Of a DNA stretch of 64,000 nucleotides, positions 36,206 through 62,583 are shown in pieces. The stretch comes from Dyella sp. A6 (GTDB lineage: Bacteria; Pseudomonadota; Gammaproteobacteria; Xanthomonadales; Rhodanobacteraceae). The stretch covers positions 1,488,001-1,552,000 of the forward strand of contig NZ_CP132911.1 in assembly GCF_036320485.1 (NCBI RefSeq). The letters are read 5' to 3'. The position numbers and the translations under genes are program-made. The notes beneath the pieces are model-generated. The model saw nothing but the letters and a program-made list of their open reading frames with translations, was not told the origin of the DNA and did not search any database. Position 1 is the first letter of the stretch; every line of letters starts with the position of its first letter.

Positions 36206-36281
36206 AACGGGAGACATCGGGCCTGCTCTCAGGCATCATGACGACTCACTATTTGGACGGCTTTACCGCCAGATAAACGAT

Positions 36282-44122: not shown

Positions 44123-46933
44123 TCAGTTGGCAGCACCTCCGCCGCCGACTGTCTGGTAGAGCTGTTCGGCAGCTGGCTTTTCCGGAAAATCGGTCTTTGT
44201 CGCCAGCAGCGACTGAAGAGTTGCGCGTGCGGCTGCCTTGTCGCCCGTGCGTACCTGGGCCACGGCCAGGTGATACTGGATGGTCGCAACTCTGGGGGCA
44301 GCCGCGGCGGCTTTCGTGAGGATCGGCAGCGCGCGCGCAGGCTGGTTCGCCGAGATCATGGCCCAGCCGTAGGTATCCGCCACACCGGGAGACTGGGGCG
44401 CGAGTTTGTAGGCCTTTTCTGCCAGCTTCATGCCCTCGGGGTTGTGTTGCTGGACGTAGATCCAGGCGAGGTTGTTCAGCGCTGCAAGGTTGGTCGGGAA
44501 GCTCTCAAGGACCTTCTTGTACTGGTCTGCAGCTTCCGTGTTCTGGCCTTGGCCAAGGTAATGCTGCCCCAGCAATAGACGGGCGGCGCCATCGTCCGGA
44601 TGCTTGTTCAGCCAGTCGCGCAATCCGCTTGCGGAATGCCTGGCGCCGCTCTTTTCGAGCGCGATAAAGTTCTTGAGCACGAATTCGCGGCTGTAGTGTG
44701 CCTTCAGGCCCTCTTGGTAGGCCTGGGCGGCTTTGCTCCACGCCTTGTGCGCCATGTACAGGTCGCCCTCCAGGCCGAAACCCGCGGCCTGGGTGGCGGG
44801 CTGCTTCTGCAGTCCTCGAGCCAGGGCTATTGCGCCGGGCAGATCGTTGTCCTGCGATTTGATGAAGGCGAGCAGGGAGACGGCAGTGAGCTGGCTGGGG
44901 TTGGTCTTGAGCACCTCGAGCAGGTTGTCCTTGGCCTGCTTCGTGTCCTTGTTGAGAACCTGCGCGCGCGCAAGGTTGGTCCGGAACAGGGCGACACTGG
45001 GCGCAAGACTGACCGCCTGCTTCAGCGGGCCGAGTGCCTGGTTGTAGTTGCCATCGCTGAGTTCCGTTGCACCGAGAACATTGAGTGCCTCCGGGTTGTC
45101 CGGGGCGGCCTTTACCAACTGCTTGGCCGTGTTTCCGGCCTCGTCAAGCTGACCGTTGTTGCGGTAGAGAAGCATCAGGCCGAGATATGCGGAGGGCGAT
45201 TTTGGGGCGGCAGCGATGGCCTGCTTGAAGCGCTTGATGGCGCTGGATTTGTCACCGTTGAGCATGTCGATGCGCCCAAGTGCCGTCAGGGCTTCGGCAT
45301 TGCCCGGGCTGAGTTTCAACGCCGATTCGTAACGCGTGGTTGCGTCCTTGTAATGGCCCTCCAGTGCGTCAAGGCTGCCCAGGCTCAGCAGGGCGGTGAC
45401 GTTCGTCGAGTCCAGGTCGTGTGCGTTGGTGAACTGGGTACGGGCCTCCGTGCGTTTGCCGGCTGCGACCAGGGCGGTGCCATATAACAGGTCGGCGGCA
45501 CTGTCCTTCGGATGCCTGGCAGCAAAGTCGGCGGCTGTCTGGACTGCCAGCTCGGTCTGTTTGCTGCTCAGGTAGGCCATGACCAGCAACGAGATGCGGC
45601 TCGCCTCCGTCGGTGCATCGCTCGTATGCATCGACTTGAGCAGGCGGATTGCCTTGGCGCTGTCCCCGCTGATGATGTCCTCACGGGCCTGGGCAAGCTG
45701 CGGGTTTTCCGCTGTGCTGCTGTTTCCTGCAGGTCCGTGGGTTTCGTTGCCCCGGATGCCTGTGGTGGCGGCCTTTTGCAGCAGGGCCAGGAGTTGCGTG
45801 TCGGACCATTGCTCGGGTGCAACCGTGCGCAGCGTATCGAGCGCCTGATGCGAGCGGCCCTCGCGATAGAACGTGAGGGCCAGCAACTTGCGGGCCTGGA
45901 CGTTCTTCTGATCCATCCCCATGACGTTGCTCAGGTACATCTCGGCTTGGGCGTAATTTCCCTGTGCATAGTTGACTGCGCCCGAGAGCAGCTGCGCCTG
46001 GATGCTGTCGGGCTGAACCTTGAGCACCTGTTGAAGCTGCGAAGTCGCCTGGTCCAGATGCCCCTGGTTGTACAGCACCAAGGCATGCAGATAGTGCGGG
46101 TAGGGTTGGCCCGGCCAGCCTTTTTCCAATGTCGATACGGTACTCAGTGTTTTATCAAACTGGCTGAGCTGTGCCTGTGTATCGGCCAGTCGCGTCAAGG
46201 CATAGAAGTGTTCCTCCGGTGACCAGCCCGGATGCTTGAAGCTCAGTGCTTTCTGAAAGGCAGTCTCTGCTGTGGCAAGGTCCTTTCGGCCGACAGCGAG
46301 GTCGCCCTTGGCCAGCCAGACACGAGGATCCTCGGGCGCCGCTGCCAGAGCCTGTTGCAGGTACTGGTCGGCCGAAGCCATATCGCCCTTGGCGGCCGAT
46401 ACCCGGGCAAGGCCCGACAGTGCGCCGGGCATCCTCGGTTCTTGCTTCAATGCAGTCTGGAACGATTGCGCGGCATGGTCGTATTGATCGAGGCCGAGAT
46501 AAGCGTCACCGCGCAGCACGTTCACCTGGCTGCTGGTCGTGGGGTCTGTGATTCCAGTGTCGGACACATCCTGCAGCAGGGTGTCGTATTGTCGTGTCGC
46601 ACGCAGCAGTTGCCCCATGGGGACGACCCATTGGGCTTTCGGTACGCCGTACGTACGGGCACTCTGCAGATCGCTGAGGGCATCCTTCGGATTTCCCAGC
46701 ATCAGTGATGCCTTACCCAGCAGCAGCCATGCCGCAGCGTTTTTGTCGTCGCGCTGAAGGACCTTCTTGGCCTCGATGTACGCGGCGCGATACTCACCCT
46801 GGTCCTGATAGCGGTTACCGGTCGCTACGCTGCCGCGCCCACTGCCTGCACCGCAGCCACCGAGCAGCAGTCCCATGCACAGCAGCGTCAGGACTTGCAG
46901 TTTCGTGCACATCTTCAGCCTGATCGAGCACAT
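44123..46933 (-). CDS. prsT: PEP-CTERM system TPR-repeat lipoprotein PrsT
   Basis: A 936-residue lipoprotein: signal peptide with lipobox LLGGC (Cys at about residue 27), then some 20 or more tetratricopeptide repeats over the whole length (typical units: GNAEALTALGRIDMLNGDKS). The PrsT family is defined by linkage to PrsK/PrsR and PEP-CTERM/exosortase loci and is thought to act as a periplasmic scaffold for exopolysaccharide or sorting. The ATG at 46933 follows GAGGGTAAGGAT; the 10 upstream codons are excluded. It follows prsR after 48 bases. Confidence 0.9.
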   Translation of the reverse strand: MCSIRLKMCTKLQVLTLLCMGLLLGGCGAGSGRGSVATGNRYQDQGEYRAAYIEAKKVLQRDDKNAAAWLLLGKASLMLGNPKDALSDLQSARTYGVPKAQWVVPMGQLLRATRQYDTLLQDVSDTGITDPTTSSQVNVLRGDAYLGLDQYDHAAQSFQTALKQEPRMPGALSGLARVSAAKGDMASADQYLQQALAAAPEDPRVWLAKGDLAVGRKDLATAETAFQKALSFKHPGWSPEEHFYALTRLADTQAQLSQFDKTLSTVSTLEKGWPGQPYPHYLHALVLYNQGHLDQATSQLQQVLKVQPDSIQAQLLSGAVNYAQGNYAQAEMYLSNVMGMDQKNVQARKLLALTFYREGRSHQALDTLRTVAPEQWSDTQLLALLQKAATTGIRGNETHGPAGNSSTAENPQLAQAREDIISGDSAKAIRLLKSMHTSDAPTEASRISLLVMAYLSSKQTELAVQTAADFAARHPKDSAADLLYGTALVAAGKRTEARTQFTNAHDLDSTNVTALLSLGSLDALEGHYKDATTRYESALKLSPGNAEALTALGRIDMLNGDKSSAIKRFKQAIAAAPKSPSAYLGLMLLYRNNGQLDEAGNTAKQLVKAAPDNPEALNVLGATELSDGNYNQALGPLKQAVSLAPSVALFRTNLARAQVLNKDTKQAKDNLLEVLKTNPSQLTAVSLLAFIKSQDNDLPGAIALARGLQKQPATQAAGFGLEGDLYMAHKAWSKAAQAYQEGLKAHYSREFVLKNFIALEKSGARHSASGLRDWLNKHPDDGAARLLLGQHYLGQGQNTEAADQYKKVLESFPTNLAALNNLAWIYVQQHNPEGMKLAEKAYKLAPQSPGVADTYGWAMISANQPARALPILTKAAAAAPRVATIQYHLAVAQVRTGDKAAARATLQSLLATKTDFPEKPAAEQLYQTVGGGGAAN

Positions 46934-46981
46934 ATCCTTACCCTCGGGTTCATGCGGCAACACGCGCGGTGTCGCCCGACG

Positions 46982-48337: not shown

Positions 48338-50415
48338 GATGACGTCGTCCTTCGTGCATCAGGCGGGGTTCCGACGCTCGCGGCCTCGGTCAGCGGAAGC
48401 TGGACGAAGAACACGGTGCCCTGACCCGGTGTACTGTTCACGCGTATGGTCCCACCCAGTGATTGCACGTATTCGCGCGCCTGGTAGGCGCCGATGCCCA
48501 TGCCTCTGCTGGCCTTGGTGGTGAAAAAGGGCTGGAACAGTCGGTTGTGCACGAAGTCTTCGTCCATTCCGGGGCCATCGTCTTCGATCATGATTGTCGC
48601 ATGTCCTGGAGTGCGCTGGACCCTGACCGCCACGTGCCCGTGTGCCGTCGCCGCGTCCTGCGCATTGCGGATCACGTGCGCCAGTATCGTCGCGAGCTGG
48701 TCGGGATCCGCCTTGATCCAGGCATCGTCTTCGGGTGCCACATAGTCCGGCGTGGGTGCGTGCACATGGCACGCATCGATGGCTTGCGACAGCGCCGTCG
48801 CCAACTGCACCCGGGTCGGGACGACGGGCGCCGCATCTCCACGTAGTTGCTGCAGCAGTCTCGAGATTCGACCGACCGCATTGGCTACCGTCGCGAGCAT
48901 GTCGTCCACGAAGGCTGGATTGTGTTTGTGACGTTCGGCGTTCTGTAGCAGCAAGGATTGCTGGGCTGCGATGTTCTTGAGGTCGTGCATCAGGAAAGCG
49001 GTGAGTCGGTTGAAGCCCTCGAACTGGCGAGCCTCGGCCAGTTGTCGCGCATCGGCGGCCTGTGCCAGTGCACTGGCTACCTGGGTGCCGGCGGCCCGAA
49101 GCAGGTCGATGTCTTCCCAATCGAGTGCTCGTCGTGCCCGTGCCTGGGCGAGCACCACGAATCCGACGAGCCGGTCTTCCATGACCAGCGGTGCCACGAG
49201 CCATGCATGCGGCAGGCCGGTCAATTCGGCTGGGGCGCGCAGTCGTTCATCGCCCAGGGGCGGTGGCTGGTCCAGGTCGTAGATCCAGCGGCGTTCGCAC
49301 ATGAACTCAAGCGAGGCCGCGTCTGCCGGAATGGCGATTCCTGACGGAGCAGGCATGTTCCATTGCACATTCAACACGAAATCGCCGCTCTCGCCTGGGC
49401 CGAACAGTGCGCCCGCCGGGCTGTCCATGGTCTGTGCCATGCCGCGTACCGCGCGCATGGGAAGTTCCATGTCCTTGGCCGACAACGTAGCGGTCAGGCG
49501 CAGCCACTGGTCGCGGTAGTCGTGACGAAAGCTGAAAAAGTTCTTGTGCAGGAACACCCGCAGACGCGAGCGTGCCTGGCCGGAGCTTGCGACCAGTATG
49601 ACGCTCAGCAGCGCAAAACAGACCAGCGTGATTTCTGCGACCCGTCCCCAGTCACCGCCATAGATGCGGACGTAATAGCCCCCGATCGCCGTGGCGATGA
49701 TGTAGATCGCGACGACCAGCAGGCTGGTCGAATAGAAGACAACGCGACGCGATACGCCGACAGGCAGGGACCAGCTGGGATTTCGCGTTGCCGCGATCAG
49801 GAAAAGTGGTACCAGTGATGCATCGATGAAACCGCGCGCTGCCCAGGCACTGATGTTGAATTGGCGGTACAGCACCGCGAACGAATACAGAAAGATGTCG
49901 TACGCGAACAGCACACCGAGTGCGATCAAGAGGAACTTGAGAGCCCAGCGCTGTTCCGGAGCCACGTTGCGGTAGATCTGTTCGAGGAACATCACCCCGG
50001 TGAGCGCCAGCACCAGGACGCCGACGATCGGTACGTTGACGCTGAAAGACAGTGATGTTCCCAGCAACCCGGTGGCAGGCCAGATGCAATAAATCGCCAA
50101 CAGAATCCAGAGCGTATGGGCGACGATACGCAGCCCTCGCAGTAGCCCGGACACCGGCCATGCACTGAACAAGGCACTGACGAACATGAGCCAGGCGCCG
50201 TAGCGGAGCACCTCGGCCAATAGCAGCCAGTTCACAGCTACCGCGTGTCGATAGGAGGTCCAGGCCAGGAACGCGCCCCATAAGACCATGCCCGATGTCG
50301 CCAGCAGCAACAATGCACCCGTGCGCTGACCACGCCATGCGACACCAAGCAGTGCTGTGCCGACCAGAAACGCAGCCGCAGCAATCAGGTAGCTGGCGAT
50401 GATGATGGTGTGCAT
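48334..50415 (-). CDS. prsK: PEP-CTERM system histidine kinase PrsK
   Basis: A 693-residue inner-membrane sensor kinase. About nine hydrophobic segments fill residues 1-290; a GAF-like domain spans about 315-460; the phospho-acceptor His is in FLMHDLKNIAAQQSLLLQ (about residue 480). The ATPase domain has an N box (HVIRNAQDAA), G1 (IEDDGPGMDED) and G2 (SRGMGIGAYQAREYV). The signal is unknown; a many-helix input domain suggests a membrane or lipid-linked ligand. It is first of prsK-prsR-prsT and lies 43 bases after wecB. Confidence 0.94.
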   Translation of the reverse strand: MHTIIIASYLIAAAAFLVGTALLGVAWRGQRTGALLLLATSGMVLWGAFLAWTSYRHAVAVNWLLLAEVLRYGAWLMFVSALFSAWPVSGLLRGLRIVAHTLWILLAIYCIWPATGLLGTSLSFSVNVPIVGVLVLALTGVMFLEQIYRNVAPEQRWALKFLLIALGVLFAYDIFLYSFAVLYRQFNISAWAARGFIDASLVPLFLIAATRNPSWSLPVGVSRRVVFYSTSLLVVAIYIIATAIGGYYVRIYGGDWGRVAEITLVCFALLSVILVASSGQARSRLRVFLHKNFFSFRHDYRDQWLRLTATLSAKDMELPMRAVRGMAQTMDSPAGALFGPGESGDFVLNVQWNMPAPSGIAIPADAASLEFMCERRWIYDLDQPPPLGDERLRAPAELTGLPHAWLVAPLVMEDRLVGFVVLAQARARRALDWEDIDLLRAAGTQVASALAQAADARQLAEARQFEGFNRLTAFLMHDLKNIAAQQSLLLQNAERHKHNPAFVDDMLATVANAVGRISRLLQQLRGDAAPVVPTRVQLATALSQAIDACHVHAPTPDYVAPEDDAWIKADPDQLATILAHVIRNAQDAATAHGHVAVRVQRTPGHATIMIEDDGPGMDEDFVHNRLFQPFFTTKASRGMGIGAYQAREYVQSLGGTIRVNSTPGQGTVFFVQLPLTEAASVGTPPDARRTTSS

Positions 50416-50458: not shown

Positions 50459-51619
50459 TCAGGCGTTGCCCATGGCCTGTTGCCGGGGTTGCGCCGCACA
50501 TCCGGTTTCGTCGTGCAAAGGCGGTAGCAGGCGTTGACGAATGTCGGCGGCCACTCGCGCAGCGGCGTGCCCATCCCAGAGGTCGGGCTTGCGCCCGCGT
50601 GCCCATTGACCCGCGAGGATGCAGTCAACCGTTTCGCCGAGTTCGGCGGTACCTACCAGCCGGTTGGTGCCCTCGGTGACCGTGATGGGGCGTTCGGTGG
50701 TGGTGCGCAGGGTCAGGCAGGGGATGCCCAGATAAGTGGTCTCTTCCTGGACGCCGCCCGAATCCGTGATGATCAGGCGTGCTCCGCAGACGAGGTTCAT
50801 GAAATCCACGTAGCCCAGTGGCTCGATGACCTGCAGCCCCGGTGCGTCGACCAGTTCGGTCCACAGGTGGAAGGTTTCGAGATTCTTGCGGGTGCGCGGA
50901 TGAACCGGGAATACCAAAGGCACTCGCGTTGCGATGCTCTTCAATTGGGCGACCAGTTCCGTCAGTTTCGCGGGCTCGTCGACATTGGACGGGCGATGTA
51001 GCGTCACCACGCCGTATTCGGTGTCTGCCAACCCGAGTTCCTGTCGGGTTGAGCGCGCCTCGATGCGGTCGCGCATCAGCTCATAGGAGTCGATCATGAT
51101 GTTGCCGACACGTGTGATCTTCTCCGCGGGCACCCCTTCGGCAGCGAGGTTTTCGTCGCCGTCCGGCGAGGGGGTCCACAGGATATCGGCGATCGCATCC
51201 GTCACCAGCCGGTTGATCTCCTCAGGCATGCAGCGGTCGCGGCTGCGCAGACCGGCTTCCAGGTGCGCCACCGTGATATGCAGCTTCGAGCCGACGAGAC
51301 TGCAGGCCACAGTCGAGTTGACATCGCCCACCACCACGATCAGGTCGGGCCGGTCGGCGACGCATGCGGCCTCGTAGGCAAGCATGACGTTGGCCGTCTG
51401 TTCGGCATGACTGCCGCTGCCTACGCCCAGATGCAGGTCAGGTTTGGGCAGGCCGAGGTCATGAAAAAAGGCATCGGACATGTTCTTGTCGTAATGCTGG
51501 CCGGTATGGACCAGTCGCAGCTTGCACCACGGTTGTTTATTCAATTCGTGGAACAGTGGCGCGATTTTCATGAAGTTCGGTCGTGCGGCTGCGATCAAAT
51601 CGATCTTGAGCTGCTGCAT
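50459..51619 (-). CDS. wecB: UDP-N-acetylglucosamine 2-epimerase (non-hydrolysing)
   Basis: A 386-residue cytosolic enzyme interconverting UDP-GlcNAc and UDP-ManNAc. Family landmarks are AARPNFMKIAPL, VHTGQHYDKNMS, VVGDVNSTVA, HLEAGLRSRDRCMPEEINR, TLHRPSNVD and the C-terminal TDSGGVQEETTYLGIPCLTLR. The last 20 residues are an unconserved tail. It supplies an activated sugar for the EPS made by the locus and leads into prsK on the same strand. Confidence 0.95.
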   Translation of the reverse strand: MQQLKIDLIAAARPNFMKIAPLFHELNKQPWCKLRLVHTGQHYDKNMSDAFFHDLGLPKPDLHLGVGSGSHAEQTANVMLAYEAACVADRPDLIVVVGDVNSTVACSLVGSKLHITVAHLEAGLRSRDRCMPEEINRLVTDAIADILWTPSPDGDENLAAEGVPAEKITRVGNIMIDSYELMRDRIEARSTRQELGLADTEYGVVTLHRPSNVDEPAKLTELVAQLKSIATRVPLVFPVHPRTRKNLETFHLWTELVDAPGLQVIEPLGYVDFMNLVCGARLIITDSGGVQEETTYLGIPCLTLRTTTERPITVTEGTNRLVGTAELGETVDCILAGQWARGRKPDLWDGHAAARVAADIRQRLLPPLHDETGCAAQPRQQAMGNA

Positions 51620-51948: not shown

Positions 51949-52830
51949 TTATCGGCGCATGAACCGGCGGCGTGCCACGGACAGGATCAGCCGTTGAAGC
52001 GGGTTGTTATTGCCCCCCGGGCGCCAGGTGCGAGCCAGCTTGTTGCGGTAGGCGTCAAAGTGGAGGCCGTGTGGCGCCGCGATGACCTTGCCTCTGCCAA
52101 GCAGGATCTTCAATGCCTGGACTCCGGCGATACCTGCACAGATTTCGCAGGCCATGGGGGTTGAAGGTCCCTTGTGATTGGCCAGGTCCACGGCGGACGG
52201 ATCGACCAGATAGGGCTGATGCAGTACGGCGGGCGCCAGGCCCACCATGAAGCGCAGTTGCTGCTCATCGGTCGAGCGGCCGTCCATTCCAAAATACTGC
52301 TCGAATGTCATTCGCCAGGGCAGGAAGGCCAGCACGGCGGCGCCCATGCCCAGCGGCGCGGCGGTAATGGCAGGAATGCCCCGCTCGGCGCACATGGCAA
52401 ATACCTTGGCGCGGATATCGAGGACGAAAAAATCCAGCCCGTCGATATACAGGTCGACTCCCGACAGGAACTGTTCCATGTTCTCGAAGGTCACGCCGTT
52501 TGGAAATACATTGATATCCAGTTCGGGGTTGATGTCCCTGGCCATCCGGGCAACAACGTCGACCTTGGGTTGGCCGATCGTTGACTGGAACGCACCAGCC
52601 TGGCGATTCATGTTTTCCATGCCAAACCGATCGAGGTCGGCCAGGTTGAACGCCCCGATCCCGAGTCGCGTCAGCGTCAGCAGGTGGCTGCCACCGACAC
52701 CCCCCAGCCCGGCGATGGCGACACGCTTGCCGCGAAGGGTGGCCTGTTCGCCACGCGTAATCCAACCGATGGTTCGGCTGAATGCAGTTGCATAGTCGAA
52801 TGGATCATGGCTGGACGGTGCGTCAGACAT
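51949..52830 (-). CDS. ThiF/E1-like adenylyltransferase
   Basis: A 293-residue protein of the ThiF/MoeB/E1 superfamily. Nucleotide-binding GLGGVGGSHL (about residues 42-51), DLDRFGMENMNRQ (about 65-77, the Arg/Asn adenylate contacts) and DGLDFF follow the family order. A single CxxC (ACEIC, about 228) remains of the usual two zinc pairs. Such enzymes adenylate a protein C-terminus or peptide; no ubiquitin-like or ThiS/MoaD-like partner is visible. A ThiF-nitroreductase fusion family (Rv1355c type) exists, and a nitroreductase lies two genes upstream here. Confidence 0.85.
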   Translation of the reverse strand: MSDAPSSHDPFDYATAFSRTIGWITRGEQATLRGKRVAIAGLGGVGGSHLLTLTRLGIGAFNLADLDRFGMENMNRQAGAFQSTIGQPKVDVVARMARDINPELDINVFPNGVTFENMEQFLSGVDLYIDGLDFFVLDIRAKVFAMCAERGIPAITAAPLGMGAAVLAFLPWRMTFEQYFGMDGRSTDEQQLRFMVGLAPAVLHQPYLVDPSAVDLANHKGPSTPMACEICAGIAGVQALKILLGRGKVIAAPHGLHFDAYRNKLARTWRPGGNNNPLQRLILSVARRRFMRR

Positions 52831-52878
52831 GGGGGCGGGCCTATAACTTTAATCTGCGGCGCAAAGCACCAAAGAAAC

Positions 52879-52902
52879 GGCGCCGCTCCGGGAAGCGGCG
52901 CC
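52879..52902 (-). terminator. Hairpin after the PEP-CTERM gene
   Basis: A 9-bp GC-rich stem (52879-52887 with 52894-52902) and a 6-base loop. On the minus strand it is followed by GTTTCTTTGG, a weak T tract, so this may be an inefficient terminator that lets transcription continue into the ThiF-like gene. Confidence 0.6.
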
Positions 52903-52941
52903 ATTTACTCGTCACAGCTCGTCCCCGAGGCGAGAGTGGTA

Positions 52942-53748
52942 TTAAGCCTGCGTGCTGGATTCTTTCCTGCGACGGCGCATGGCGAATGCCAGAAAGCCCA
53001 GGCCGAGCCCCAGCATGCCGGCACCGGCCGGCTCCGGCACACTGCTTTTGCCTACCAGCGAACCATTGCCTTCGATCGGGTAGTAGCAGAGGCTGTTCGG
53101 GTCGGTCGACACTGACGTACAGCCGCCGGCCGGGAAGTACTGGAACGACGAGTTCAAGCTGAAGTCTGCAAATCCGCCGTGGCCATCCGAAATGCTGTTG
53201 GTGTTGAGGTAGGGCGATGCGGCGCCGCCCGACGCGTCCAGCAGGCCGTAGCCGTTGGAGCCACTCAGCGGGTCAGCTACCGTGCCGGTGACCGTGGCGA
53301 ACAGATCGCCGGTGCTTCCAAACGAAGGATTGTAGAAGCTGTGGCCGGAGAGGGTGAGCCACTCGGTACCATTCATGGCGGTGCTCGGATCCAGCACGTT
53401 GTAGCCGCCCGGTGAGGACACGTAGAACTGGAAGCTGCCTCCATCGAAGACGATCGCGTTACCGCTGATGCTGTGTACCGTGTATGAGAACGTAAAGGTC
53501 AGATCGCAGTTGCTGCAGAAGTTGTTGTTGCCATTGATCGAACCGATCTGACCATAGCCGGTGAGGGTATCGCCGACTTTTGAGACCGACGATTCACGAA
53601 GGTTAATCGACTGGATGGTCAGGTCGAGCGGATTGCTCGTGTTCCAGGTAACCCCATCCACAGTAACCGGGCTTGCGAAGGACGATCCGCTCCAAGCGAA
53701 AAGTGCCAGCGCACACGCGGTGAGCCATCCTTTGTATTTCTTGAACAT
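52942..53748 (-). CDS. PEP-CTERM sorting-domain protein
   Basis: A 268-residue secreted protein. A signal peptide (residues 1-27, ending SSFASP) is followed by a Ser/Gly/Asn-rich beta-type domain with few Lys and a Cys pair (FCSNCD). The C-terminus has the complete sorting signal: VPEPAGAGMLG, a hydrophobic helix LGLGFLAFAM and RRRRKE. Exosortase (XrtA) recognises and cleaves this signal. The start at 53748 follows GGGGAAG. A sigma54 promoter lies about 87 bases upstream. Surface function, perhaps matrix or biofilm, is inferred. Confidence 0.93.
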   Translation of the reverse strand: MFKKYKGWLTACALALFAWSGSSFASPVTVDGVTWNTSNPLDLTIQSINLRESSVSKVGDTLTGYGQIGSINGNNNFCSNCDLTFTFSYTVHSISGNAIVFDGGSFQFYVSSPGGYNVLDPSTAMNGTEWLTLSGHSFYNPSFGSTGDLFATVTGTVADPLSGSNGYGLLDASGGAASPYLNTNSISDGHGGFADFSLNSSFQYFPAGGCTSVSTDPNSLCYYPIEGNGSLVGKSSVPEPAGAGMLGLGLGFLAFAMRRRRKESSTQA

Positions 53749-54218
53749 GTTCTTCCCCGCAAGAGTTGGGAGTGAATCGATGTTGGCGCGAAGACAGGGA
53801 AGTGAAATGCCCACACTTCGCTCGCCATGGTTAAAGCACACGGCGTGCCATCATTTCAACCAATTGATATTAAAGAAAAGATTTCCATTTTTTGCTCGCG
53901 CGAATGTGCTCTTTTGTAAGAAATATCGACACTTGTCCATCGCACGCTGCTGAGCTCATGTGCATGCGCTGATCGGAAATAGGCTGCCGGAGACTTGTAA
54001 CCCTGGATGCGTCCTCGAGGGCTGTGGCATCAAGCAAGCGAGAGGTTGCGCAGTGTCGCCCGCGCACGTCGCACCAAGTCATCGCCGAGGCGCATGACAG
54101 GCAACACAGGGATTCCGTCGGTGTAAGGAGCCTCGACACTCATCGATGGCCGCACGCGTCTTGCCATGTCTTGCCGGCGACAAGGGCGCCCGAGCCAGCC
54201 CTGCATGTGGCCTTGATG
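53749..54218. other. 470-bp regulatory gap upstream of the PEP-CTERM gene
   Basis: No gene seen. It holds the sigma54 promoter at 53835 and, beyond it (53851-53950), a relatively AT-rich stretch suited to enhancer binding by PrsR and DNA bending. I see no clear inverted repeat that I could name as the PrsR site. No terminator with a T tract is visible behind the nitroreductase gene. Confidence 0.5.
53835..53850 (-). promoter_or_regulatory. Sigma54 (-24/-12) promoter of the PEP-CTERM gene
   Basis: On the minus strand TGGCACGCCGTGTGCT: a perfect TGGCACG -24 element, 4 bases, then GTGCT, with GG and GC exactly 10 bases apart. It differs from the consensus TGGCACG-N4-TTGCW at one position. The predicted 5' leader is about 75 bases. 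It fits control by PrsR, encoded nearby. Confidence 0.85.
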
Positions 54219-55274
54219 CTACGGCGCAGTGTCGAAACTTGCGGGCGCCCGTCGACCGCTCCGGTGCTGCGGGGCCGAGCGCGCATAGCCCAGTCGCAGG
54301 AATACGAGTCCATGTCCGGGGCCGCAGAGCTTGTCCAGGTCGACTCGCAGTTGCGAGCATGTCTGAAGAAAGGCTGGTTCGACCGGAACGAATCCCAAGC
54401 TGAGTACGCCGGGTGCGGCGTACGGCTGAACTGACAAGCCGGCCACAGTGGCTTCGAGCCAGACGCGTTGCAGGGCGCGGCCGCATGCCAGCACATCCTG
54501 CCGCTCATCGGATGGCATCACACACACGCACAGGCCTGGCGACAACCTGATGGGCAGGTAGGCCGAACGCCAACCGAGCAGGGTGGCGGTGCCCAGATGA
54601 TTGAACGCGCGCATTACGGCGGGGTGGCGTAGTGCCTGGAATATCGGTCGCATTGGCGGCTCCACCGCCAGCGTTGCAGGGGCCAGGCCTTCTTCGCAGG
54701 TGTTACGCCAGCCTGTCGAGAAGCGGACACTCGAGAACAGTTCGGCGTGCAGCTTCGGACTTTTGAAACGCAGCGTTTCAGCTGTCCGGATGATCCGTAA
54801 TGCGAGTTTTCGCTCGTATGGTGAAGTCGGCCAGTAGAGTCGTTGCCCCGGAATTTGCCGGGCCTGTGCTGCAAGGCGTTCTCGTGTGTTCGCATCGATC
54901 GGACCCCGCCACGGGAATCTCCGGTCGGTGTGACGTTGCTCGATGGCGGTGGCCAATGGCTCGGACCGAGCTGGCACGAGAGCCGGGTGCCAATGGATGT
55001 GGGCAACCCATTGTGGGTCGTCCTGGTGCGGAAAGGTCGCCACGTCTGCGTCGAATCCGAGTGATCGGGCATGGATGATCATGTTTTCCATGCACGCGCC
55101 AGCGGCCAGGTCGCTCAATACATGACGTGTGTCGGATACGCTTCCGCTGCGGTCTGCATCGATGTGAATGTCCAGATCATCGCCGGACCATGCAAATCGC
55201 CATGGCTGGGAATTGTCAGCCGATGGTGCGGCAATACCGGCTCGAAGAATGCTTGCTCTGGCTTCCAGGTCCAT
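54219..55274 (-). CDS. Nitroreductase-family (Acg-like) protein
   Basis: A 351-residue protein of the FMN nitroreductase superfamily, long Acg/Rv3131-like branch. The flavin-site start APSADNSQPWRF (about residues 15-26) is clear, ACMENMIIHARSLGFDADV follows, and EQRHTDRRFPWRGP is the second conserved Arg region. C-terminal half-domain: QRVWLEATVAGLSVQPYA. Acg-like proteins may bind flavin without normal turnover. It heads a leftward trio with the PEP-CTERM and ThiF-like genes. Its C-terminal about 15 residues are unconserved. Confidence 0.85.
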   Translation of the reverse strand: MDLEARASILRAGIAAPSADNSQPWRFAWSGDDLDIHIDADRSGSVSDTRHVLSDLAAGACMENMIIHARSLGFDADVATFPHQDDPQWVAHIHWHPALVPARSEPLATAIEQRHTDRRFPWRGPIDANTRERLAAQARQIPGQRLYWPTSPYERKLALRIIRTAETLRFKSPKLHAELFSSVRFSTGWRNTCEEGLAPATLAVEPPMRPIFQALRHPAVMRAFNHLGTATLLGWRSAYLPIRLSPGLCVCVMPSDERQDVLACGRALQRVWLEATVAGLSVQPYAAPGVLSLGFVPVEPAFLQTCSQLRVDLDKLCGPGHGLVFLRLGYARSAPQHRSGRRAPASFDTAP

Positions 55275-55625
55275 GGTCGGCGATTACCCGTGTGTTGAGC
55301 CTGACGGGGCTCAAGCTACCGAAGATCGGTTGCTAAGACCAACACATTCTCTGCTGGTCGGATTCACGCAATCTTCGGAGGAGGGCGACAGCCAGTCCCA
55401 GGAGTCGGTTCTACTGGCAGCCCGACTCGACAGGATGGAAGACTGTACTGATGGGCGCATGCGATGATGCAGCGCAGCCGATGCTTACGCTGGACATGCT
55501 TCAGTGCCGGATGTCCGGTGTGGTTGATGAGTGCCCAGCCAGTCTGATTCGACCTTGATCGACCGGGCTGCCGTGTACGGCCATACCTGATCTGCAGTCA
55601 TTTCCATCGGAAAGGGAGTTTGTTC
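55275..55625. other. 351-bp divergent gap between the nitroreductase gene and galE
   Basis: No gene seen. A GAGCC-TGACG-GGGCTC type hairpin lies at about 55296-55312. Promoters for both genes must be here; I find no convincing sigma54 element in either direction and no strong sigma70 pair. Confidence 0.4.
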
Positions 55626-56636
55626 ATGCGAGTTCTGGTGACAGGTGGCGCCGGCTATATCGGGTCACATACTTGCGTGGCTCTGTGCGAGCACGATTTC
55701 GAGCCGATTGTGTTCGATAATTTCTGCAACAGCTCTCCTGAGGCAGTGCGACGGGTCGAGTCCATCGTTGGGCGTCGTATACCGGTCATCGAAGGCGACA
55801 TGCGTGACCGCGAGGCGCTTCTGGACGTCTTGGAACGCCATGCCATCGAGGCAGTGGTGCACTTCGCGGCGCTGAAAGCGGTCGGCGAGAGCCTCTCCTG
55901 CCCGCTGGAGTATTTCGACAACAACATCACCGGCACGATTACGCTACTCCAGGCGATGCAGGCCAAGGCGGTACATCGCCTCGTGTTCAGTTCATCGGCG
56001 ACGGTTTACGGCGGGGCCGAGACGATTCCCGCCACCGAGGATTCCCCGTTGTCGGTGACCAATCCCTACGGCCGCACGAAGCTGGTCATGGAGCAACTGA
56101 TCGCCGACGTGTGCGCTGCGGATGCAGGTTTCGCCGCCATGATCCTGCGCTATTTCAACCCGGTCGGTGCGCATCCCAGTGGCCAGATGGGCGAAGACCC
56201 CAAGGGCATACCGAACAACCTGATGCCGTACATCGCCCAGGTGGCGGTGGGGCGACGGGACAAGCTCAGAATCTTTGGCAACGATTGGCCGACACCTGAC
56301 GGCACCGGTATCCGGGACTTCATCCACGTGATGGATCTTGCCCATGCGCATGTGGCGGCATTGCGCGGTCTGCCAAGGCAGGCGGGAGCAACCATGCTCA
56401 ATATCGGCACGGGCAAAGGTACCTCGGTGCTGGAGCTGGTCCGCGCCTTCGAGATGGCGTCCGGCCGGAACGTTCCATTTGAATTTGTCGGTCGCCGGCC
56501 GGGGGATATTGCGGAGCTCTGGGCGGACCCGTCGCTGGCGCAAGAGGTACTCGGCTGGCGCGCCGAATACGACATCGAGCGCATGTGCGAAGACACCTGG
56601 CGCTGGCAGTCCGCGTACCCCGATGGCTACGCCTGA
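55626..56636 (+). CDS. galE: UDP-glucose 4-epimerase
   Basis: A 336-residue short-chain dehydrogenase-type enzyme interconverting UDP-glucose and UDP-galactose (some members also the N-acetyl forms). The NAD motif VTGGAGYIGSHTC is at residues 6-18, and the active-site Tyr/Lys are in NPYGRTK with FSSSATVYG before it. RYFNPVGAHPSGQMGEDP is diagnostic of GalE. The ATG at 55626 has GGGAG 7 bases upstream; TTG at 55620 is less likely. It supplies galactose units to the EPS. Confidence 0.95.
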   Translation: MRVLVTGGAGYIGSHTCVALCEHDFEPIVFDNFCNSSPEAVRRVESIVGRRIPVIEGDMRDREALLDVLERHAIEAVVHFAALKAVGESLSCPLEYFDNNITGTITLLQAMQAKAVHRLVFSSSATVYGGAETIPATEDSPLSVTNPYGRTKLVMEQLIADVCAADAGFAAMILRYFNPVGAHPSGQMGEDPKGIPNNLMPYIAQVAVGRRDKLRIFGNDWPTPDGTGIRDFIHVMDLAHAHVAALRGLPRQAGATMLNIGTGKGTSVLELVRAFEMASGRNVPFEFVGRRPGDIAELWADPSLAQEVLGWRAEYDIERMCEDTWRWQSAYPDGYA

Positions 56637-56996: not shown

Positions 56997-58274
56997 ATGC
57001 GGAATGTGGAAAGCAGCAAGATCGCCATCGTCGGGCTTGGCTATGTCGGTTTGCCGTTGGCGGTGGAATATGGCAAGCGCTATCCCACCATGGGATACGA
57101 CATCAACGCCCAGCGAATCGCACGACTCAAGGATGGCCACGACGACACGCTCGAGGTTTCCAGCGAGGAACTGGCTTCATCGGGGAGCTTGGGGTTTACC
57201 GCACGCCTTGAGGACATTGCCGACTGCAATGTCTACATCGTGACAGTCCCGACACCGATCGATCGGGCCAAGCGTCCGGACCTTTCTCCCTTGGTCGGTG
57301 CCGCGGAGATGATCGGCAAAGTGTTGAGTCCGGGTGATGTCGTGGTCTTCGAGTCGACGGTTTACCCGGGGTGCACGGAAGAAGTCTGCGTGCCCATCCT
57401 GGAACGTGGCTCGGGGCTGGTGTTCAACCAGGATTTCTATGTTGGCTACAGTCCCGAGCGGATCAATCCCGGCGACAAGCAGCACCGGGTCACCAACATT
57501 CTCAAGGTCACCTCCGGATCCACGCCCGAGGCGGCGGCTTTCGTCGATCGCCTGTACGGATCGATCATCACCGCCGGCACCCATCCTGCAAGCTCGTTGA
57601 AAGTGGCGGAGGCGGCCAAGGTCATTGAAAACACGCAGCGCGACCTGAACATCGCCCTGATCAACGATCTGGCCATCCTGTTCAACAAGCTCGGTGTCGA
57701 CACGCTGGAGGTTTTGGAAGCCGCTGGCACCAAATGGAACTTCCTGCCGTTCCGTCCTGGTCTGGTCGGCGGCCACTGCATCAGTGTCGACCCGTACTAT
57801 CTGACCTACAAGGCTCAGCAGGTGGGTCATCATCCGGACGTGATCCTTGCCGGTCGTCGGACCAACGACAACATGGGGCCCTACATCGCCAGTGAAGTCA
57901 TCCGGCTGATGGTGTGCAAGGGCATCAATCCTGTCCATGCGCGTGTACTGATGATGGGGCTGACTTTCAAGGAGAACTGCCCGGACCTGCGCAATACGCG
58001 TGTCGTTGATATCGTGCAGGCGCTGAAGTCCTATGGCATCCAGGTCGATGTCCACGATCCCTGGGTGGATACGGCCGAGGCAAAGCATGAATACGGCATG
58101 GACCTGATCGCCGAGCCTGGCGAGAGTACCTACGATGCAGTTGTCCTGGCCGTGGGGCATCGCCAGTTTGCCGACCTGGGTGGTGAGGGTATCCGGCGCC
58201 TGGGCAAGCCGGTGTCGGTGCTCTACGACGTCAAGTACGTGTTGCCCAGGGATGCGGTCGACGGCCGTCTGTGA
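56997..58274 (+). CDS. tviB: UDP-N-acetylhexosamine 6-dehydrogenase (TviB/WbpO type)
   Basis: A 425-residue NAD-dependent UDP-sugar dehydrogenase making a UDP-N-acetylhexosaminuronate (GalNAcA or GlcNAcA). It has the N-terminal Rossmann motif IVGLGYVGLPLAVEYGKRY, then FNQDFYVGYSPERINPGD, the catalytic Cys in RPGLVGGHCISVDPYYL (about residue 261) and the C-terminal LTFKENCPDLRNTRV. The YVGYSPERINPGD and KWNFLPFRPG stretches favour the TviB/WbpO branch over UDP-glucose dehydrogenase. It is followed after 17 bases by a uronate epimerase gene. Confidence 0.9.
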   Translation: MRNVESSKIAIVGLGYVGLPLAVEYGKRYPTMGYDINAQRIARLKDGHDDTLEVSSEELASSGSLGFTARLEDIADCNVYIVTVPTPIDRAKRPDLSPLVGAAEMIGKVLSPGDVVVFESTVYPGCTEEVCVPILERGSGLVFNQDFYVGYSPERINPGDKQHRVTNILKVTSGSTPEAAAFVDRLYGSIITAGTHPASSLKVAEAAKVIENTQRDLNIALINDLAILFNKLGVDTLEVLEAAGTKWNFLPFRPGLVGGHCISVDPYYLTYKAQQVGHHPDVILAGRRTNDNMGPYIASEVIRLMVCKGINPVHARVLMMGLTFKENCPDLRNTRVVDIVQALKSYGIQVDVHDPWVDTAEAKHEYGMDLIAEPGESTYDAVVLAVGHRQFADLGGEGIRRLGKPVSVLYDVKYVLPRDAVDGRL

Positions 58275-58291: not shown

Positions 58292-59302
58292 ATGAAAGTT
58301 CTGGTTACCGGAAGCGCGGGTTTCATCGGGTCGGGTGTCGTGCATGCGCTGCTTGAGCGCGGCGATGAAGTGATCGGCCTCGACAATCTCAACGATTACT
58401 ACGACGTCGAGCTGAAGAAAGCGCGCCTGGCACGATTCGCCGATGATCCGCGGTACGTGCACGTTCATGCGAACTTGGAAGATCGTCGTGCCATGGAGGC
58501 CTTGTTTGCGGAGCACGTGCCGCAGCGTGTTGTCCACCTGGCAGCGCAGGCCGGGGTCCGCTATGCCGCCGAAAACCCGCACGCGTACGTGGACAGCAAT
58601 GTCACGGGATTCCTTCATGTGCTGGAGGGCTGCCGGCATCACGCAGTGGAACATCTGGTCTTCGCGTCCACCAGTTCCGTCTACGGTGCCGATACGGCGA
58701 TGCCATTTTCCGAGCATCAATCCACCGAGCACCCGTTGACGCTCTACGCCGCGACCAAGAAAGCCAATGAGCAGATGGCGCATTGCTATGCCCACCTCTA
58801 CGGCATCCCGAGCACGGGCTTGCGCTTCTTTACGGTGTACGGCCCCTGGGGGCGTCCGGACATGGCCTTGTTCCTGTTCACCCGGGCGATCCTTGCCGGA
58901 GAGCCGATCAAGGTCTTCAATCACGGCAAGCACAAACGCAGCTTTACCTATGTCGACGACATTGTCGAAGGTGTGTTGCGCAGTCTCGACAGGCCGCCGG
59001 TCAAGGATCCGCAGTGGAGCGGCAGGGAGCCCGACCCGGCCAGCAGTGGCGTTGCGCCCTACCGGATCTACAACATCGGCAACGAACATCCGGTCGAGCT
59101 GTTGCGCTATATCGAGGTGCTCGAGGAGTGTCTGGGTCGAAAGGCCGAGATGCAGATGCTGCCGCTGCAGCCGGGGGATGTGCCAGACACGGAAGCGGAT
59201 GTCTCCGATCTGGTTGCGGATGTGGGCTACCGCCCACGGGTTTCAGTGGAAGAGGGTGTGGCAGCGTTCGTGAACTGGTATCGCGAGTATTACGCTGTCT
59301 GA
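58292..59302 (+). CDS. UDP-glucuronate 4-epimerase family NAD-dependent epimerase
   Basis: A 336-residue short-chain dehydrogenase. [12 protein letters not shown] is the NAD motif; [40 protein letters not shown], the catalytic YAATKKANE and [14 protein letters not shown] are characteristic of UDP-GlcA 4-epimerases (CapI/WbnF-like), which make UDP-galacturonate. With the preceding dehydrogenase it indicates an acidic EPS. The TviB/TviC pairing also leaves a UDP-GlcNAcA 4-epimerase as an alternative. Confidence 0.9.
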
Positions 59303-59408: not shown

Positions 59409-60287
59409 TTACGCCTCGACCAATATGGCCACGTCGTTGCTGCTCTCTGCGTTCACGGTGTCCGGATTCTTCAGCACGGGCATCAGGCTGGGCAAAAGAA
59501 GACCGTTTGTCTCGATGCGTTGCTCGATACCGTGACGATCCTTCAGAAAAGCAGCGATCCTGGAACCGTAAAGCTGCTCGGGCAGGAACCCGAAACGGCT
59601 GGAGAATGCGCTGCGCGGAACTGGATTGTCACGTGCATCTGCAAGGCCTCGCGGCAAAACGTCCTTCGCCAATCCTTCATGCAGGCGCAGGCGCAATAGA
59701 ACGACGGGATTGTCGCGAACCAGCGCATAGGTGGTCGGTGGTGCGAATTCCTCGAAACCGTAGCATCGCGTGTAGAACGCGGCGTGCCGCGGGTGCACGC
59801 CGATCATGATGTCGGTAACCCCGGTGTGCAGACCGAAGTAAATGGCCCATCGCATCATGTTGAAGAGGGCTTTCATTCCGCGGGCCGCAACTTCGCGGCG
59901 GTCTGCAAGCATGCCCACTTCGAGAAGCTGACGGCCTTGGTCGCGCAGCTGATCCAGGTAGGGGCGGTAGACACTGTCCAGTGCCAGTCCCAGAGGGTTG
60001 TCACGGAAAAGCGTCATGGTGTAGCCGACATTCGCCCCGTCCGGACCCCAGATCACGCAGGCATGCGGCCCAACGGCGGTGGGGCTGGCATGCAGTCCGT
60101 ACGGGTTGTCCGCGATCAATCCCGTTTGCGTGTAGCGTCGATAAACCAGGCTCCACGCGGACTCGACTTCCGCAAGGCTGCTCGCGCACATGCATGTGGG
60201 CAGGCCCCGACGTTGATCAGAGCTCACTGACCGCGTTGTGACGCCGGCGACGGTCTTGGTCGATGTCATTGAATATGTTGAGTTCAT
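59409..60287 (-). CDS. FeeM-type N-acyltransferase, PEP-CTERM/exosortase associated
   Basis: A 292-residue GNAT-fold protein. The core, about residues 40-220, matches N-acyl amino acid synthase (FeeM) and exosortase-associated acyltransferases: SLVYRRYTQTGLI, PLGLALDSVYRPYLDQLRDQGRQLLEVGMLA, MMRWAIYFGLHTGVTDIMIGVHPRHAAFYTRCYGFEEF. Such enzymes use acyl-ACP to acylate an amino acid or related amine. The C-terminal about 70 residues are an unassigned extension. The start at 60287 (MNSTYS) has GGAA upstream; the frame is open to 60680 but that part is poor in family features. It is convergent to the uronate epimerase. Confidence 0.82.
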   Translation of the reverse strand: MNSTYSMTSTKTVAGVTTRSVSSDQRRGLPTCMCASSLAEVESAWSLVYRRYTQTGLIADNPYGLHASPTAVGPHACVIWGPDGANVGYTMTLFRDNPLGLALDSVYRPYLDQLRDQGRQLLEVGMLADRREVAARGMKALFNMMRWAIYFGLHTGVTDIMIGVHPRHAAFYTRCYGFEEFAPPTTYALVRDNPVVLLRLRLHEGLAKDVLPRGLADARDNPVPRSAFSSRFGFLPEQLYGSRIAAFLKDRHGIEQRIETNGLLLPSLMPVLKNPDTVNAESSNDVAILVEA

Positions 60288-60663
60288 GGTTCCGTTACCG
60301 ATCCATGTTCCCTGATGTCGGCGTGGGAACTGCTTGCTTGAGCCAATTGAAGATGGGTCTTGTCCCTTTACTGTCTGATAGCAGCGAAACCGGCTATTCG
60401 GGGACGACACCAGTCGTTGGTCGCCATTGCCGCCCTGGTCCGGCCTGTCGGTGCTTGCTGCGGGTGGCAGCGAAGTAACCGGGCCCCCGGCGAAGATCCG
60501 GGATGCATGTTGGGGGACAGACTCATGGCGGTAACGAAACCTGAAGTAGTCGGGATGCTTGATCAAAATGCCAGGGCGTTGATGTAGTGAAGGCAAAGTC
60601 CTGTTTTTTTTGTTGCTTTTGTTATTGCATCCCTTCATGAGGGAATGTAGGGGAAATCTTCCT

Positions 60664-60679
60664 AGCATAACGTGAACCA
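60664..60679 (-). promoter_or_regulatory. Candidate sigma54 promoter upstream of the FeeM-type gene
   Basis: On the minus strand TGGTTCACGTTATGCT: GG and GC are spaced exactly 10 bases and TGG/TGCT match; the -24 side is weaker than at 53835. It lies about 377 bases before the chosen start codon, implying a long leader. Confidence 0.5.
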
Positions 60680-61182: not shown

Positions 61183-62583
61183 ATGTACCGGGCACTAAGG
61201 ATCAAGGCCGTGCGCTGGCAATTGTTGCTGGTGCTGGTCGACACAGGGCTCCTCATCGGGAGCGTTTATGCGGCCGAAACCCTCCGCTTCTGGGGGCGTG
61301 GCGCAATGAATGGCGAGTTCACCAGCGGCCAGTTCTGGCGTGCGGTGCTGGCGGCATGTGTTCTGAGCCTGGGTATGGCCGCGCTTGGCCTCTATCAGGT
61401 GCACATGCGCGCGGGATGGTTGGGGCAGCTCAGTCGCCTCTGCGTCGGTTTCATGCTCGGCGGTGTTTTCCTGGCTGTGCTGTATTACGCCATCCCGGTT
61501 GTCTATCTCGGGCGCGGCGTGCTCGGAATCACGCTTGTGATCGGTGCTTTCGCCATCGCCTTCTGGCGAATCATTTTCCTTGGGTTTCTCGATGCCAGTG
61601 TGTTGAAGCGACGCATCATCGTATTCGGTGCGGGTGAGCGCGCTGCACAAGTCGCGCGCAAGATGCGCCGCAAGACCGACCAGCGAGGGTTCAAGATTCT
61701 GGGGTACGTACCCATAGGCTCGGATACTGTCCACGTTCCGGAAATGCTGATACTGCATCCCGAAGAACCGCTTGCCGATTGGGTGGCGCAACAGGATGTG
61801 GATGAGATCGTTGTCGGCCCTGACGAACGTCGCGATACCCTGCCGGTGGATGCACTGATGCAGTGCAAGCTCCAGGGTGTCGAAGTGACCGAAATCTCGG
61901 ATTTCTTCGAGCGCGAAGCGGGCTCGATCAAGATGGACCTCACCAATCTCTCGTGGCTGGTCTACTCCGGTGGTTTCAAGGTTTCGCCGCTACGGTGCGC
62001 GTCCAAACGTGCCTTCGATGTAACGGTAGCCACCCTGGTCGCGTTGTTGGCATGGCCATTCATTCTATTGACTGCATTGGCCATACGGCTGGAGTCGGGG
62101 CCCGGTGCGCCTATCCTGTATCGGCAGGAGAGGGTTGGCGCAAATGGTCGGTCCTTCACACTGATCAAGTTCAGGAGCATGCGCGTCGATGCCGAGCGGG
62201 ACGGGATCGCGCAATGGGCGTCTACGCACGATAAGCGTGTGACGCGTATCGGCCATCTGATCCGTAAGACCCGCCTGGACGAGCTGCCACAGCTTTGGAA
62301 TGTGCTGTGCGGCAATATGAGCATCATAGGGCCTCGGCCTGAGCGGCCGCAGTTCGTGAAGGACTTCAATGTCCAGATTCCCTACTACCCGTTGCGGCAC
62401 TCCGTGAAACCGGGGCTGACCGGTTGGGCGCAGCTGCGCTATCCGTATGGCTCGTCTGTCCAAGATGCCGAGGAAAAGCTCAAGTTCGATCTGTTCTACG
62501 TGAAGAACCACAATCTGGTTTTCGATCTGGCGATCCTGATCCAGACGGTGGAAGTGGTGCTTTTCGGCCGCGGTGCGCGCTGA
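61183..62583 (+). CDS. XrtA/PEP-CTERM system priming glycosyltransferase (EpsB_2 type)
   Basis: A 466-residue membrane enzyme that starts the EPS repeat unit by moving a sugar phosphate to undecaprenyl phosphate. Four N-terminal helices (to about residue 140) and a CoA-binding-like domain (RRIIVFGAGERAAQVAR) precede the C-terminal bacterial sugar transferase domain: KRAFDVTVATLVALLAWP, FTLIKFRSM, KTRLDELPQLWNVLCGNMSIIGPRPERPQF, SVKPGLTGWAQL. This layout defines the XrtA-linked family. It is first gene of the EPS operon in the window, with AGGGGG before its ATG. Confidence 0.93.
   Translation: MYRALRIKAVRWQLLLVLVDTGLLIGSVYAAETLRFWGRGAMNGEFTSGQFWRAVLAACVLSLGMAALGLYQVHMRAGWLGQLSRLCVGFMLGGVFLAVLYYAIPVVYLGRGVLGITLVIGAFAIAFWRIIFLGFLDASVLKRRIIVFGAGERAAQVARKMRRKTDQRGFKILGYVPIGSDTVHVPEMLILHPEEPLADWVAQQDVDEIVVGPDERRDTLPVDALMQCKLQGVEVTEISDFFEREAGSIKMDLTNLSWLVYSGGFKVSPLRCASKRAFDVTVATLVALLAWPFILLTALAIRLESGPGAPILYRQERVGANGRSFTLIKFRSMRVDAERDGIAQWASTHDKRVTRIGHLIRKTRLDELPQLWNVLCGNMSIIGPRPERPQFVKDFNVQIPYYPLRHSVKPGLTGWAQLRYPYGSSVQDAEEKLKFDLFYVKNHNLVFDLAILIQTVEVVLFGRGAR

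Follow-up and report, generated by a model that had tools for sequence, protein, structure and literature searches.

The stretch analyzed here, referred to as the window, comprises 64,000 nucleotides (bases 1488001-1552000) of the genome of Dyella sp. A6, which consists of a single contig of 3.72 Mb. It carries three consecutive minus-strand genes encoding a ThiF-like protein, a PEP-CTERM surface protein, and a nitroreductase (Table 1), whereby the identities and coordinates of all three open reading frames (ORFs) given in a preliminary description were confirmed. A FeeM-type synthase, which had not been part of that trio, constitutes an additional enzyme of the block. The block is flanked by an XrtA locus, with prsT, prsR, prsK, and wecB on the one side and three sugar genes, EpsB2, a chain-length determinant, a tyrosine kinase, an ATPase, a deacetylase, FemAB, and exosortase A on the other side. 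Judged from its genes, the block likely encodes a split N-acyl oxazolone (azlactone) synthase, which belongs to the XrtA/PEP-CTERM/exopolysaccharide (EPS) system.

Enzymes of the block and their surroundings

The ThiF-like protein is a full match to the NCBIfam model PRK08223 (440 bits, cut-off 266) and shares 86% identity with its counterpart from Rhodanobacter thiooxydans LCS2 (locus L079). By sequence, its nearest solved relative is TcdA (3.4e-17), an enzyme that cyclises an amino-acid carboxylate on a tRNA nucleoside. The fold was predicted with a mean pLDDT of 88.9 and matches best to ThiF (1zud), MoeB, and AclA, with ThiF in first place; a literature search on AclA gave no relevant paper. 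Residues G41, G43, G44, G46, R76, K89, and D133 are invariant in the 23 rows of the ThiF alignment A2, and the nucleotide-binding loop and the adenylation aspartate of a cyclase are in place. The E1 enzymes of ubiquitin-like and sulphur-carrier proteins (ThiF, MoeB) have two conserved CxxC zinc motifs. The protein from the window has a lone CxxC (C228, C231), which the preliminary description regarded as a distinguishing feature. However, these positions are variable, with cysteine in 16 and 21 of 25 aligned sequences, respectively. The scores for the sulphur-carrier E1 models also fall short of the cut-offs, with 82.7 vs. 275 bits for ThiF and 59 vs. 377 bits for MoeB.

The nitroreductase matches the Rv1355c family (2.2e-45) and PRK14851 (6e-39), and its nearest solved sequence is Acg (2YMV, 2.3e-10). 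The synthase matches the FeeM structure 2G0B (3.8e-6) and provides the block with a putative N-acyl amino acid acyltransferase partner. Its internal start codon at 60287 is preferred, because the counterparts at L079 and at two further loci, L080 and L081, comprise 268-275 amino acids (aa). At these three loci, the synthase is the next long ORF past the nitroreductase, 0.5-1.6 kb off on the divergent strand. An iterative profile from the window synthase alone yielded zero relatives in the first contig set; relatives were taken from family-level matches and a larger set.

The only NCBIfam match of the synthase is to the N-terminal part of PRK14852 (3.6e-18), a model of 989 positions, the later parts of which match ThiF and the nitroreductase. 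A protein of 989 aa with the domain order FeeM, ThiF, nitroreductase is encoded on a plasmid of Nitratidesulfovibrio vulgaris, whereby its likeness to PRK14852 is drawn from the identical length and domain order alone. It shows 31, 48, and 29% identity to the FeeM, ThiF, and nitroreductase proteins of the window, respectively, and adjoins a TIGR03013 XrtA glycosyltransferase, a TPR protein, three PEP-CTERM proteins (two of them THxN), and a sigma-54 regulator. It thus unites the three domains next to a TIGR03013 glycosyltransferase and THxN PEP-CTERM proteins, but differs from the window in being fused, plasmid-borne, and from another phylum.

In the ORF list, the PEP-CTERM gene begins further upstream with a GTG (53841); a start at the ATG at 53748 is in agreement with its signal peptide. 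Apart from this gene, the Pfam PEP-CTERM model finds just one other place in the genome (G000:C1:2421317-2421397). The protein aligns to NF033554, the model of the flocculation PEP-CTERM protein PepA, over residues 10-262, although at 38.8 bits it stays below the cut-off of 80. Its fold was predicted poorly (pLDDT 65), and there was no structural match at E 0.001 or better.

Among the genes of the surrounding locus, PrsK, PrsR, PrsT, EpsB2, XrtA, the chain-length determinant, the deacetylase, and FemAB exceed the cut-offs of their models, whereas the tyrosine kinase (205 of 231 bits) and the ATPase (315 of 325 bits) are below. The UDP-sugar dehydrogenase at 56997-58274 is over the TviB cut-off, which hints at an aminosugar-acid EPS like the Vi polysaccharide. 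The third-position G+C content is 0.65-0.66 in 54219-55274 and 59409-60680 compared to 0.72-0.78 in the other measured genes of the window, and these two genes are perhaps later arrivals. Long ORFs at 34221-38665 and 31086-33512 have no NCBIfam match at 1e-15, and some of these may be on the wrong strand.

Table 1. Features of the block and of the XrtA locus of Dyella sp. A6, with positions in the window
Feature	Position	Strand	Basis
ThiF-like cyclase of the PRK08223 family; predicted reaction: adenylation and cyclisation of an N-acyl amino acid	51949..52830	-	293 aa; Pfam ThiF 6.8e-40
PEP-CTERM surface protein, PepA-like at low score	52942..53748	-	268 aa; Pfam PEP-CTERM 23.2 bits, cut-off 20.7
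Acg/flavin-dependent oxidase (FDO)-type nitroreductase, predicted flavin-dependent desaturase	54219..55274	-	351 aa; Acg, Rv1355c family, PRK14851
FeeM-like N-acyl amino acid synthase	59409..60287 (ORF to 60680)	-	292 aa from ATG at 60287; Pfam FeeM 8.6e-36
Sigma-54-like promoter TGGCACGCCGTGTGCT	53835..53850	-	87 bp before the PEP-CTERM start codon; score 15.2 of 16.7
14-bp hairpin, terminator- or attenuator-like	52875..52906	-	between PEP-CTERM stop and ThiF start; fold
prsT, TPR protein of the XrtA system	44123..46963	-	TIGR02917 558 bits, cut-off 312
prsR	46982-48337	-	TIGR02915 664 bits, over cut-off
prsK	48334-50415	-	TIGR02916 670 bits, over cut-off
wecB, UDP-GlcNAc 2-epimerase	50459..51619	-	TIGR00236 301 bits, cut-off 210
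galE and TviB-like dehydrogenase	55620-56636 and 56997-58274	+	NF007956/TIGR01179 and NF011729 over cut-off
Epimerase-like nucleotide-sugar gene	58292-59302	+	Pfam Epimerase 3e-56; over none of the NCBIfam cut-offs shown
EpsB2, XrtA-system glycosyltransferase	61183..62583	+	TIGR03013 539 bits, cut-off 393
XrtA	~71731-72510, outside the window		TIGR03109 271 bits, cut-off 208

Relation to characterised oxazolone pathways

The OxzAB system of Pseudoalteromonas is reportedly an N-acyl oxazolone pathway built from an acyltransferase, a ThiF cyclase, and a flavin-dependent oxidase. These enzyme types make N-acyl tyrazolones in the case of TyzACB (PMC10404671) and tryptazolones in the case of TrzAS (PMC12856293). 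Shared with these systems are the three enzyme types, with a flavin-dependent oxidase of the nitroreductase family, the fused or adjacent position of ThiF and oxidase, and the conservation of residues that were tested in TrzS. Via a plasmid-encoded TrzS relative, R169 and Q283 of the nitroreductase align with the equivalents of Arg540 and Gln651 of TrzS, respectively, whereby the equivalence was derived from an offset of 13 to the plasmid relative and not from the M. smegmatis sequence itself. The two residues are conserved, with arginine in eight and glutamine in all of nine aligned rows, as is expected for an FDO/nitroreductase partner. D133 of the ThiF-like protein aligns with D202 of the same relative and most likely corresponds to Asp217 of TrzS. 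The plasmid neighbor of the TrzS relative was considered as a TrzA but was rejected, being just a weak TrwB match. In contrast to the Oxz, Tyz, and Trz systems, the genes of the window are split around a PEP-CTERM gene within an XrtA/EPS locus, and the synthase is of the FeeM/PRK14852 type. Neither PEP-CTERM nor exosortase is mentioned in the accessible text of PMC10404671 and PMC12856293.

The match to the enzyme types of the characterised Oxz/Tyz/Trz pathways, together with the fusion and the linkage, leads to the reading of the block as a split oxazolone synthase. From the gene content, the homology, the conserved key residues, and the linkage we infer the following reactions and site of action. 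The FeeM-type synthase would N-acylate an amino acid with a fatty acyl chain. The ThiF-like enzyme would adenylate the free carboxylate in an ATP-driven step, whereupon the amide oxygen would close the ring to a 5(4H)-oxazolone, and the flavin nitroreductase would desaturate the C-alpha/C-beta bond. The lipid would be made alongside the XrtA exopolysaccharide and the PEP-CTERM protein and would most likely work in the envelope or matrix that these build.

Linkage of the block to the XrtA system

The gene neighborhood was compared across 103 distinct ThiF loci, which remained after three duplicates had been dropped from 106. They include 80 named loci, which are the best 80 by identity among at least 481 confirmed ones, and many of the contigs are short. 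XrtA-locus genes, acyltransferases, and exporters were called by custom profiles from window or class seeds, whereas PEP-CTERM genes were called by a regular expression. A nitroreductase lies within 8 kb of ThiF in 85 of the 103 loci, and in 30 of these both are encoded in one ORF. Thus, ThiF and nitroreductase indeed form a pair, as the preliminary description had proposed. Over the tree, the fused state of the two changes 17 times, with at least six changes forced by starred branches (bootstrap unsettled). An acyltransferase is found within 8 kb in 72 loci, and 57 loci have both an acyltransferase and a nitroreductase. The three small acyltransferases scanned beside ThiF (one in G124 and two in G128) are "PEP-CTERM/exosortase system-associated acyltransferases" (TIGR03694), over the cut-off.

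Three Thioalkalivibrio loci (L141, L143, L148) as well as G010 and G124 have ThiF and an acyltransferase in the XrtA locus with no nitroreductase nearby, and these might make an unoxidised product. Near ThiF in L060 (722-1954; G237) and L064 (15611-16855; G147), the FeeM synthase is fused to a cyclic-nucleotide-binding domain, which would allow a possible allosteric control of lipid synthesis. Lipid exporter genes (MMPL/LolA/DUF1302 or LolCDE-like) occur somewhere in the sequenced stretch of 41 of the 103 loci, as a raw count without background control, and none of these types was found in the window's own locus. The MMPL, DUF1302, and LolA-like genes at L066:13353-18228 and the LolCE-like ABC permeases at L046:9020-12226 lie beside ThiF and are candidate lipid exporters.

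Co-occurrence was analyzed in a class sample of 274 genomes and in a phylum sample of 398 genomes, both drawn evenly, whereby G000, G107, and G139 are common to both; because of the relatedness among the genomes, the p-values should be taken as indicative. In the class sample, ThiF was over the cut-off in 26 genomes, PrsK in 75, and XrtA in 51, and 49 genomes had a FeeM-family match. The preliminary description had named an enrichment near xrtA or prsK as a check, and this enrichment was found. XrtA is present in 24 of the 26 ThiF carriers vs. 27 of the 248 other genomes (p 3e-18), and PrsK in 24 of 26 vs. 51 of 248 (p 3e-13). A FeeM-family match occurs in 18 carriers vs. 31 of the others. By hand count, PrsK is on the ThiF contig in 16 carriers, in 13 of them within about 25 kb, and on another contig in eight more. 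Among the 16 ThiF carriers of the phylum sample, 14 have any exosortase match vs. 57 of the 382 others, and XrtA is over the cut-off in nine vs. 26, which is weaker than in the class sample. In G592 (C1:290481 and 286888) and G608 (C1:148687 and 145071), ThiF lies about 3 kb from an exosortase below the XrtA cut-off, and other exosortase types may share the ThiF association.

In many of the contigs examined, the ThiF unit is located between prsT and the chain-length gene. Two or more XrtA-locus genes are in reach at 47 of the 103 loci, or at 40 if PrsT is left out. From the 25 named loci at which ThiF and nitroreductase lack an acyltransferase within 8 kb, 13 genomes were picked by hand. All 13 have a FeeM-family match, four of them just a weak one (28-33 bits), and 11 have XrtA over the cut-off. 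In nine of the 13, no XrtA-locus gene is in reach (~10 kb) of the ThiF-nitroreductase pair, and in seven of these nine (G274, G275, G276, G278, G279, G280, G282) XrtA has a strong FeeM-family gene at a distance of 8.6-9.7 kb, so that the synthase can remain at the XrtA locus when the pair is located elsewhere. The remaining two have a weak FeeM-family match only and no XrtA over the cut-off. Taken together, there is a strong link of the block to the XrtA/PEP-CTERM system.

The order of ThiF, PEP-CTERM, and nitroreductase genes is the same in L079, L080, and L081, and thus the arrangement of the trio is not due to chance. The density of PEP-CTERM genes is 0.206 per kb in the first kb beside the ThiF/nitroreductase unit, which is about 17 times higher than at a distance of 4-10 kb, where there are 11 in 919 kb. 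At 58 of the 103 loci there is a PEP-CTERM gene within 2.5 kb. When only loci with both flanks longer than 4 kb are considered, a near PEP-CTERM gene is present in 16 of 24 loci with no XrtA-locus gene in reach, in 11 of 16 with one, and in 24 of 40 with two or more. Within 2 kb, a PEP-CTERM gene is found beside 43 of 70 nitroreductases and 36 of 85 ThiF genes vs. 0 of 12 PrsK, 0 of 16 PrsR, 1 of 26 chain-length, and 0 of 7 XrtA genes. Out of 61 neighboring PEP-CTERM ORFs, 46 (the window's own and those of named loci) were scanned for families, with matches at E 1e-5 to EDSAP-1 in 34, to THxN in 34, to PepA in 33, and to the bare C-terminal sorting model in 10, whereby the scan gives matches without the coverage per member. 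When the 12 largest PEP-CTERM clusters were compared profile against profile, one pair had a probability over 30; therefore, a single PEP-CTERM family is not claimed from this comparison, and the family scan serves as the basis.

The sigma-54-like site in front of the PEP-CTERM gene is one of three sites in the window that score 15 or more, and sites scoring 15.7 precede the PEP-CTERM gene in L079, L080, and L081. From the scan, only this high-scoring site, which is also present in the relatives, was used. In front of the nitroreductase or synthase genes of the window and the three relatives there is no sigma-54-like site except for one weak site in L079. Long hairpins are present at the same position between the PEP-CTERM and ThiF genes in L079-L081. 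A consensus terminator scan, the count of which was at chance (8 vs. 8.3), did not report the hairpin. The preliminary description had treated the leftward trio as one unit, which is doubtful as a unit of transcription in view of the sigma-54-like site and the strong hairpin before thiF, both being present in the three relatives. The pepA gene of Aquincola carries a sigma-54 promoter and is followed by a stem-loop, and when it is overexpressed in an rpoN1 mutant, flocs and bound EPS are restored (PMC9850573). The pepA-prsT region of Aquincola thus resembles the window and L079-L081 in having a PEP-CTERM gene with a sigma-54(-like) promoter and a stem-loop or long hairpin after it; there is no mention of ThiF or nitroreductase in the accessible main text of that paper. 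Because this layout is common to the window, L079-L081, and Aquincola pepA, strong expression of the PEP-CTERM gene under sigma-54, with a lower expression of thiF, is probable instead of one plain operon.

Weighing of the interpretations and meaning of the finding

N-acyl amino acid synthases have reportedly been linked to PEP-CTERM/exosortase systems before (Craig et al. 2011). Compared with these PEP-CTERM synthases (NCBIfam TIGR03694), the window would add a cyclase and an oxidase toward an oxazolone. In Methylomonas LW13, disruption of the N-acyl amino acid synthase of the PEP-CTERM system led to the loss of a distinct polysaccharide band, which was restored by complementation (PMC11072679). 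Three of the ThiF loci in the set come from Methylomonas (L090, L118, L139). The type of oxazolone pathway and the link between synthase and PEP-CTERM are already known, whereas it is new, as far as searched, that the cyclase and the oxidase are connected with XrtA as well as with a PEP-CTERM gene that recurs as their neighbor. Literature searches, which most subscription papers lie outside of, gave unrelated mentions only for exosortase and oxazolone and nothing for PEP-CTERM, nitroreductase, and ThiF.

Several observations weigh against the reading as an oxazolone synthase of the XrtA system. The N-acyl oxazolone is a predicted product of a pathway read from its genes. The nitroreductase reaches 163 bits with the NCBIfam Acg model, which is under the cut-off of 199, and it is only 25% identical to the TrzS relative. 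In the window, three sugar genes separate the synthase from the nitroreductase, which is located at a distance of 4 kb on the same strand. Across the loci, 18 of 103 have no nitroreductase within 8 kb (five with short flanks). From nine class genomes lacking one near ThiF, seven (G010, G055, G066, G107, G124, G249, G259) have no genome-wide match at 1e-10; the other two, G223 and G247, have weaker matches elsewhere in the genome. Therefore, the third step is not universal. Likewise, 31 of 103 loci show no acyltransferase within 8 kb (10 with short flanks). XrtA is not over the cut-off in the class carriers G098 and G249, and it is under the cut-off or absent in seven of the 16 phylum-sample carriers, five of which have a lower-scoring exosortase. 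PrsT genes have a PEP-CTERM neighbor within 2 kb (25 of 42) as often as nitroreductase genes do, and the acyltransferases seldom have one (6 of 65 and 4 of 27), so that part of the density peak may come through PrsT. At the scan threshold of 13, sigma-54-like sites occur at chance frequency (53 vs. 56). Finally, there was no multiplication of the LW13 mutants in the gradient syringe (PMC11072679), and the loss of the band may therefore follow from growth.

Alternatively, these enzymes could use an N-acyl amino acid as substrate and pass the ThiF adenylate to another nucleophile, which would give an ester or amide lipid or sugar instead of an oxazolone as end product. This is in line with the loci that keep ThiF and an acyltransferase without a nitroreductase, with the polysaccharide deacetylase of the locus, which could leave free amines, and with the diversity of E1-like enzymes for small substrates (MccB, PaaA, and TcdA are among the matches). 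Nevertheless, we regard it as unlikely: the characterised members of the enzyme combination make oxazolones (PMC10404671, PMC12856293), and the window retains all three enzymes together with the residues tested in TrzS.

The preliminary description had suggested an adenylation and flavin tailoring step linked to PEP-CTERM sorting or to the EPS, with the C-terminus of a small peptide as a possible substrate of the ThiF-like protein. The linkage to the XrtA/PEP-CTERM system stood up, and the PEP-CTERM gene is indeed a recurrent neighbor (58 of 103 loci); moreover, PepA of Aquincola gives three bands on blots, which its authors read as processing and modification (PMC9850573). That an E1 would act on the C-terminus of a peptide or on the PEP-CTERM protein is nonetheless quite improbable, as the CxxC is not conserved and a cytoplasmic, ATP-using ThiF protein would have to act before the export of a protein with a signal peptide; no search aimed at a small carrier or peptide gene was made. 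A role of the ThiF-like protein in thiamine or molybdopterin synthesis with an accidental location, as the common ThiF/MoeB fold might imply, was rejected as hardly conceivable in view of ThiF and MoeB model scores far below the cut-offs, four other PF00899 matches in the genome, three of them much stronger, and the strong co-occurrence with XrtA.

If the block encodes a split oxazolone synthase, the oxazolone might serve as a reactive acyl donor, which would open after export on amines of the deacetylated XrtA polysaccharide or of the PEP-CTERM protein and thereby fix a lipid anchor on the matrix; we put this forward as a speculative idea with little chance of being correct. If true, it would represent a chemical anchoring step in the exosortase system, for which to our knowledge no anchor is known. 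The genomic data point to the PEP-CTERM protein as the first partner candidate. Many EPS-making bacteria, among the named loci for instance Rhodanobacter, Janthinobacterium, Massilia, Thauera, and Methylomonas, are predicted to make an oxazolone lipid for the matrix, and the recurrence of the association in many related bacteria suggests where oxazolone lipids may be used.

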